The notes below the pieces were generated by a model, which was given only the letters and a program-made list of their open reading frames with translations, was not told where the DNA came from and made no database searches. 64,000 bases of DNA from Nocardioides marmoriginsengisoli (lineage in GTDB: Bacteria > Actinomycetota > Actinomycetes > Propionibacteriales > Nocardioidaceae): positions 1,192,963 through 1,256,962 of the forward strand of contig NZ_RJSE01000007.1 in the NCBI RefSeq assembly GCF_003725695.1, in the 5' to 3' direction. Both the position numbers and the translations under genes were made by a program. Position 1 is the stretch's first letter. Every line of letters starts with the position of its first letter. Of the stretch, positions 28,713 through 29,091 are shown piece by piece.

Positions 28713-28739
28713 GTGATCTCCCTCACGTTTGCCCGATAG

Positions 28740-28753
28740 TGGAACATGTTCTA
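28740..28753. promoter_or_regulatory. KstR-type operator (TGGAACATGTTCTA)
   Basis: Fits the KstR consensus TnnAACnnGTTnnA at all fixed bases, 28 bp upstream of choA. KstR is a TetR repressor released by a cholesterol-derived CoA thioester in mycobacteria and rhodococci. Confidence 0.8.
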
Positions 28754-28941
28754 CCGGTACTCCGGGGTTTCGTCACTACCTACTGAGAGGTAACTCCGGT
28801 TGCGCGGCCGTCGAACCTCTTGAAAATGCCGGACGTCGAGGTTCTGAGTCTGCTATTGCGAGCAGCTCGATAGTGAAGAAATATCGGTTATTCCATTTCT
28901 ATTCTCGTTCCGTATGACGGCCGATCCTCGCGTGAATCAGG

Positions 28942-28955
28942 TGGAACCTGTTCTA
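28942..28955. promoter_or_regulatory. Second KstR-type operator (TGGAACCTGTTCTA)
   Basis: Same consensus match, 137 bp before the Ig-repeat gene and 230 bp before choA. It places the divergent surface-protein gene in the presumed sterol regulon. Confidence 0.75.
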
Positions 28956-28986
28956 GAAAAGTTCGCGCGTGACCGTTGACACGCTT

Positions 28987-29006
28987 TAGATAACAGCGGT
29001 TATCTA
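28987..29006. promoter_or_regulatory. Perfect palindrome TAGATAAC-agcg-GTTATCTA
   Basis: An 8+4+8 inverted repeat, 86 bp upstream of the Ig-repeat gene. Its sequence differs from both the KstR box and the island operator. Probably a further TetR-type operator. The rest of 28713-29091 holds no gene. Confidence 0.55.
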
Positions 29007-29091
29007 TGCGGCAGCGAATCGGGTCGCACCGTTCTGCGTCTGGCTGCGGGGAAGTGGCCGGATGTTTCTTCCGATCGAAGGGATCCCCTTG

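Follow-up and report, generated by a model that had tools for sequence, protein, structure and literature searches.

Paired KstR-type boxes in the intergenic stretch shared by genes for a cholesterol oxidase and a secreted Ig-repeat protein in Nocardioides marmoriginsengisoli

Within the window, the 64-kb stretch of DNA analysed here (C2:1192963–1256962 of a 4.46-Mb genome in 16 contigs), the cholesterol oxidase gene choA and a gene encoding a secreted Ig-repeat protein diverge from an intergenic stretch of 379 bp (28713–29091; positions are those of the window unless a contig or locus is given). This stretch holds a genuine pair of predicted KstR sites. On balance, we lean towards reading it as a KstR-controlled divergent promoter in which the second site, box 2, brings the Ig gene into the KstR regulon.

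Box 1 (TGGAACATGTTCTA, 28740–28753) lies 27 bp from the choA ATG. Box 2 (TGGAACCTGTTCTA, 28942–28955) stands at a distance of 202 bp from box 1; 229 bp separate it from the choA ATG, and the Ig ATG at 29092 follows it after 136 bp. Both agree exactly with the consensus TnnAACnnGTTnnA, which is the published KstR motif (PMC1995591), and they are the only exact matches in the 64-kb window; the two exact sites that the earlier note had described in this divergent promoter are thus found at the positions claimed. When one mismatch was allowed, TnnAACnnGTTnnA matched 11 places in the window, compared with 3.73 ± 2.05 in shuffles. Among 10,000 dinucleotide-preserving shuffles of the 379-bp intergenic stretch, 39 contained at least one exact box and none contained two or more. 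For a scoring matrix, we used 36 further exact sites located in promoters of this genome; box 1 scored 26.1 bits, box 2 scored 22.7 bits and the next best place in the window 8.6 bits, with exact matches scoring high by construction because the matrix was trained on exact matches.

These boxes are accompanied by many others. Exact KstR-type sites number 57 genome-wide, versus 8 for the reversed pattern used as a control, and 50 of the 57 were examined for their surroundings; 12 fell inside called genes and 38 outside (the choA/Ig pair and 36 others). One box precedes the gene for HsaA by 40 bp, with the genes for HsaD and HsaC following in the same direction (626, 469 and 513 bits for HsaA, HsaD and HsaC, respectively, all above the NCBIfam cut-offs). 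Another has a P450 gene 21 bp to one side and, 134 bp to the other, a gene for a steroid 3-ketoacyl-CoA thiolase, which scored 652 bits, also above its NCBIfam cut-off. Genes of the hsa and fadA5 types are classic KstR targets. The genome also encodes a KstR orthologue (C14:19794–20363; L120:1477–2088) that is 53% identical to Mycobacterium tuberculosis KstR over 196 positions, with a nearly identical helix-turn-helix; the possibility raised in the earlier note, that kstR might be absent, therefore falls away. This protein scored 272.5 bits over the whole of model NF033703, just below the cut-off of 280; within the genus, 18 of 24 genomes (own included) have a match with E < 1e-50 and none of the 24 reaches the cut-off. 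The sequence of box 2 recurs at C14:23869, some 3.5 kb away from kstR; the gene that follows this copy after 84 bp is, judged by eye, oxidoreductase-like. The excess of sites over the control, the boxes beside hsa and thiolase genes and the KstR orthologue together indicate that the sites are part of a real, predicted KstR-type regulon, and the assignment of the two choA/Ig sites to the KstR type stands, since they match the published consensus in a genome that has both the regulator and further sites. Separately, the sequence TTGAACGTGTTCAA at L072:3527 (G000:C4:435526), 14 bp upstream of a gene for a 220-aa TetR protein, fits the KstR consensus and may be that TetR's own site.

The choA gene (27075–28712, reverse strand) encodes a 545-aa cholesterol oxidase of the choA type within the GMC family (phmmer against 1coy_A, E = 1.1e-217; Pfam GMC domains), and its homology to 1coy_A spans residues 46–545, full-length to the solved enzymes. 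Gene starts were taken from a simple codon-model caller, which misplaced that of choA at 28604; the start at 28712 was used. The N-terminus contains SRRGFLAG, which by eye we take to resemble a twin-arginine export signal. On model NF058674 (CholsOxChoxAB) the protein scored 100.6 bits, below the cut-off of 850, and it probably belongs to a different branch. Among 294 genomes of the family, 27 orthologues besides the own gene were found, with 72–87% identity; among the matches listed, no other genome of the genus has a close orthologue, and one (G053) has a 35% relative. Regions of 600 bp upstream were scanned for the own gene and the 27 orthologues of at least 72% identity at a score threshold of 14. 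All 27 orthologues carry a KstR-type box upstream, 12 of them exact and 15 with one outer base changed, and the first base of the box lies 38–79 bp upstream of the aligned protein start. Because a box recurs at a comparable place in every orthologue, box 1 is almost certainly the choA operator, and choA almost certainly KstR-controlled. Two more distant relatives outside this count (L115 and L116; 34–35% identity) differ from one another: there is a box at the L115 start and none upstream of L116. The neighbours of choA vary among the orthologue genomes, and no Ig gene lies beside choA in any of the 27 (roughly 1.5 kb on each side). In three relatives (L091, L097 and L098) the gene divergent to choA encodes a different, apparently secreted protein, with repeats in L091 and L098 that look RTX-like by eye.

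The locus stands near the edge of a compositional shift. In 2-kb bins, GC is 0.62–0.66 across window positions 1–28000, as opposed to 0.69–0.74 across 30001–64000, and six genes examined in the low-GC stretch have GC3 values of 0.67–0.88, among them an IS3-type integrase gene (23776–24663). Elsewhere in the genome, 251 called genes have a GC3 of 0.951 ± 0.028, a mean that is biased upward because the caller was trained on high-GC3 ORFs. The low-GC stretch (1–27000) is island-like, and the high GC3 of choA (0.949) and of the Ig gene (0.955) places its border near choA. Recent foreign origin of choA itself was considered and is not supported by composition, its GC3 being close to that of the 251 genes. 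Two further observations concern the island. A perfect dyad, TATCTAACA-GG-TGTTAGATA, occupies 8991–9010 and is a possible operator of another regulator; a P450 gene has its called start about 330 bp further downstream. Outside the window, a perfect KstR-type box at L051:3784 (G000:C2:525283) stands 87 bp before a gene which we judged by eye to be similar to the 2-oxoacid:ferredoxin oxidoreductase gene at 2936–4801 in the island.

Turning to box 2, none of the 27 choA orthologues has a distal second box (score above 14, within 600 bp upstream), and thus box 2 is private to the choA/Ig locus among those compared. Being private and situated on the Ig side, it makes co-regulation of the Ig gene through box 2 plausible, with a likelihood that we would put at slightly better than even. 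The distance from box 2 to the Ig start (136 bp, or 106 bp if the alternative in-frame ATG at 29062 is used) exceeds the usual range: the nearest start codon, as placed by the simple caller, lies within 99 bp for all 36 of the other promoter boxes from the 50 sites examined, a range into which the 27 bp of the choA box falls. The thiolase gene at 134 bp from its box resembles box 2 in this respect, the nearer P450 gene sharing that box, and indicates that the far-side gene of a divergent box can stand so far away in the same genome. A putative −35 element of the Ig promoter, TTGACA (28976–28981, forward strand), was recognized by eye, and the same hexamer aligns upstream of the Ig paralogue; a possible −10 element, TATCTA (29001–29006), follows after 19 bp. 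Both were assigned by eye because a promoter scan found no sigma-70-type promoter at 28600–29200. Relative to the putative −35, box 2 is on the upstream side, where a repressor site is less usual; the mycobacterial KstR box described in PMC1995591 partly overlaps the −10.

Possibly, both boxes serve choA alone, with box 2 acting as an auxiliary operator (for example through DNA looping) and the Ig gene as a bystander. We give this an appreciable but minority chance. It would account for the remoteness of box 2 from the Ig start, and it has parallels at two loci described below, L047 and L078, where boxes stand close to an enzyme gene and the secreted Ig or fn3 protein is encoded divergently at 180–253 bp, so that such neighbours need not share regulation. 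The authors of PMC7807495 likewise caution that, where two operons diverge, a site in the middle may be functional for one side only. Co-regulation of the Ig gene is also made less certain by their report that, in Nocardioides simplex, phytosterol induced only about a third of the operons for which KstR/KstR2 sites are predicted. Against the choA-only reading, the choA orthologues manage without a distal box within 600 bp upstream, and the sole two-box orthologue (L114) has its boxes 12 bp apart and adjoining choA. The proposal of the earlier note that KstR couples the two genes is therefore upheld on the oxidase side by the boxes of the 27 orthologues; on the Ig side, the evidence is box 2.

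The arrangement can be set against known systems. The KstR regulon of mycobacteria and rhodococci (Kendall 2007, PMC1995591) has in common with this genome the TnnAACnnGTTnnA palindrome, a KstR orthologue and boxes by hsa and fadA5-type genes, and according to the same paper the mycobacterial Rv3570c/Rv3571 region carries two copies of the KstR motif in one divergent intergenic region. The present case differs in adding an exported oxidase of the choA type and may also add the secreted Ig-repeat protein; the main text of PMC1995591 does not contain the terms "cholesterol oxidase", "surface" or "secreted". A precedent for choA is the cholesterol oxidase gene KR76_09550 of N. simplex, reported in PMC7593942 as a cholesterol-induced member of the KstR regulon; like choA, it has a predicted KstR site, and orthology between the two is not assumed here. 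The main text of that paper names no Ig-like or surface protein (0 occurrences). For Rhodococcus ruber Chol-4, the text of PMC5348764 describes paired KstR boxes at the divergent promoters cyp450-kstD1/fadA5 and hsaE/kstD3, which resemble the choA/Ig stretch in that a pair of boxes surrounds the region from which sterol genes diverge. Both flanks of the R. ruber pairs are sterol catabolic genes, whereas one flank of the choA/Ig pair is a structural secreted protein. In the open-licence literature searched, we found no paper that joins KstR to an Ig-repeat protein.

The Ig gene (29092–32217, forward strand) encodes 1041 aa, its start having been set by homology to the paralogue. Its product has an N-terminal signal peptide, as judged by eye and from hydropathy, followed by a domain of no known family (approximately 29245–29796, forward strand) that is shared with the paralogue. 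No Pfam family matched this domain beyond chance up to E = 10 (best E 0.094), and an AlphaFold2 model from the single sequence was unusable (pLDDT 37, pTM 0.23). The remainder is dominated by Big_3_5, which matches the protein with 162 bits (Pfam cut-off 35.5) in four stretches, all on the forward strand: Ig-like domains 1 (29797–30054, E = 2.5e-17), 2 (30670–30903, a partial profile match, E = 3.2e-9), 3 (31384–31617, E = 1.3e-14) and 4 (31651–31914, E = 1e-19). A probable fifth, degenerate Ig-like domain occupies 31981–32199 on the same strand (Big_3_5 E = 0.0025, below the Pfam cut-off). Past the stop codon, two strong G+C-rich hairpins (32223–32309, forward strand) are possible terminators, with a folding z-score of −7.64 and none of 200 shuffles folding as well. 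A signal peptide followed by Big_3_5 repeats is likewise the plan of secreted bacterial proteins of the Big_3_5 Ig-repeat kind. Of the 1041-residue, Ig-repeat surface protein described in the earlier note, the length and the Ig repeats were recovered and the word "surface" was not: the protein contains no LPXTG-like or sortase motif and no C-terminal membrane anchor (top C-terminal 19-residue hydropathy 1.18). It matched no sterol-binding family. As a separate observation, the window also encodes (35348–39043) a 1231-aa protein whose start resembles a signal peptide and which matched nothing in Pfam or NCBIfam.

In its distribution the Ig protein differs from other secreted Big_3_5 proteins, since across the genomes searched and the matches listed its full-length match is limited to a paralogue in its own genome (C2:531654–534761, 35–36% identity). 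No full-length relative outside the own genome was present among the matches listed from 294 family, 391 order and 394 class genomes. Some match was obtained in 96 of the 294 family genomes (own included), 75 of the 391 order genomes and 59 of the 394 class genomes; the three draws overlap, two candidates were scored per genome, and the order and class searches used the part of the protein before the last Ig domains. Beyond the own copies, the matches listed are partial and mostly to the Ig-like repeats, with a few short ones elsewhere. A contig scan with the two-paralogue alignment (two peptide patterns) returned three weak matches, in Paenibacillus and Methanosphaera. Upstream of the paralogue the matrix score rises no higher than 0.7, and there is no KstR box.

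Two further secreted proteins are encoded beside KstR-type boxes in this genome. At L047:3661 (G000:C2:222160), a box lies 31 bp from an aldehyde dehydrogenase-like gene (by eye) and 180 bp from a gene whose product, secreted and no shorter than 1215 aa, gave lamin-tail, phytase-like and weak Big_3_5 matches. At L078:3468 and 3508, two KstR-type boxes 40 bp apart separate the gene of a FadD8-type ligase from that of a secreted fn3 protein, with 11 bp from box to enzyme gene and 253 bp to the secreted protein. The fn3 protein has some match in 43 of 120 family genomes (own included), the matches listed being mostly to the fn3 part, and a nearly full-length relative with 32% identity in one genome of the genus (G110). 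A general theme of secreted proteins beside KstR boxes was considered; it is weakened by the position of these boxes, which adjoin the enzyme genes (31 and 11 bp).

Downstream of box 2, a perfect dyad, TAGATAAC-AGCG-GTTATCTA (28987–29006), overlaps the putative Ig −10 element and is a candidate operator for a second regulator. The Ig gene may be chiefly controlled by another TetR protein at this dyad, perhaps the weakly FasR-like neighbour of the paralogue, with KstR only modulating; such control is compatible with the KstR two-box explanation, and we regard it as tentative and somewhat improbable. The genome holds a single exact copy of the dyad's core, GATAACNNNNGTTATC. A TetR gene (L086:11710–12411) diverges from the paralogue and has a 16-mer related to the dyad directly in front of it, at the position expected of an autoregulatory site. 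The pattern GTAACNNNGNTTATCTA, with up to two mismatches on the forward strand of the 4.46-Mb genome, matches few places, namely both promoters and one other (two for the reversed control), the two promoters matching by construction because the pattern was drawn from them. Dyads of this kind arise in 30 of 1000 shuffles, so that the evidence from the dyad is weak, and shuffles reach the 16-mer shared by both promoters in 24 of 1000 cases (68 of 1000 at length 17 and 173 of 1000 at length 20 for the respective lengths). With 4 mismatches over its 16 arm positions, the site at the paralogue fits less well than an unrelated place, L073:5554, which has only 3. A MAFFT alignment of the two upstream regions adopts a different register from the shared 16-mer. 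Finally, the resemblance of the TetR protein to FasR is weak, its 50 bits being far below the FasR cut-off of 330. The dyad thus hints weakly at a second regulator. We also note that two TetR genes, weakly FadR/FasR-like, adjoin the paralogue (L086:10812–12603; G000:C2, about 529.8–531.6 kb), and that 4-mismatch dyad-like sites precede the called start of one by about 330 bp and that of the other by about 30 bp.

It is very unlikely that the boxes are bound by some other KstR-like TetR protein instead of the KstR orthologue. The genome has 92 TetR_N matches, including a second full-length but weak match to the KstR model (C2:918687, 90.7 bits), and the orthologue itself falls slightly below the NF033703 cut-off; even so, no other protein attains the score of about 272 bits found for the one at C14:19794, which agrees almost completely with the published KstR in its DNA-binding part, and the boxes fit the published consensus. 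That both sites are chance matches, as the shortness of the consensus and the 12 of 50 examined sites inside called genes might suggest, is scarcely credible, given that no shuffle in 10,000 held two boxes and that the sites like box 1 at all 27 orthologues already contradict chance for box 1.

Returning to the KstR-controlled divergent promoter, we propose that KstR bound to both boxes would keep the region silent in the absence of sterol. A cholesterol-derived ligand would bind KstR and free both boxes; in mycobacteria, the ligand is a 3-oxo-cholestenoic acid or a CoA thioester, according to the text of PMC5348764. Synthesis of the exported oxidase would then coincide with that of the secreted Ig-repeat protein, with box 2 as the element that recruits the Ig gene to the regulon, in the manner of the two-copy Rv3570c/Rv3571 region, and the Ig gene would be a credible candidate for a new target of the known KstR regulon. 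The Ig protein itself could serve as an extracellular scaffold or binding protein that is useful during growth on sterol. The regulon and the choA part of this scheme rest on comparison; the Ig part and any role at sterol particles we infer. A more specific version, that the KstR-controlled Ig protein acts extracellularly with the oxidase, for instance by holding cells or enzyme on solid sterol, and that a second, lipid-sensing TetR repressor at the dyad supplies a further input and links the Ig gene to its paralogue, we consider unlikely.

If box 1 alone matters, what remains is a cholesterol oxidase under ordinary KstR control. If the Ig protein does act with the oxidase under KstR, control by this repressor would extend from uptake and catabolism to physical contact with an insoluble substrate. 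To our knowledge, the contact of actinobacteria with insoluble sterol particles is poorly understood, and a secreted structural protein under a sterol repressor would offer a concrete gene to delete.
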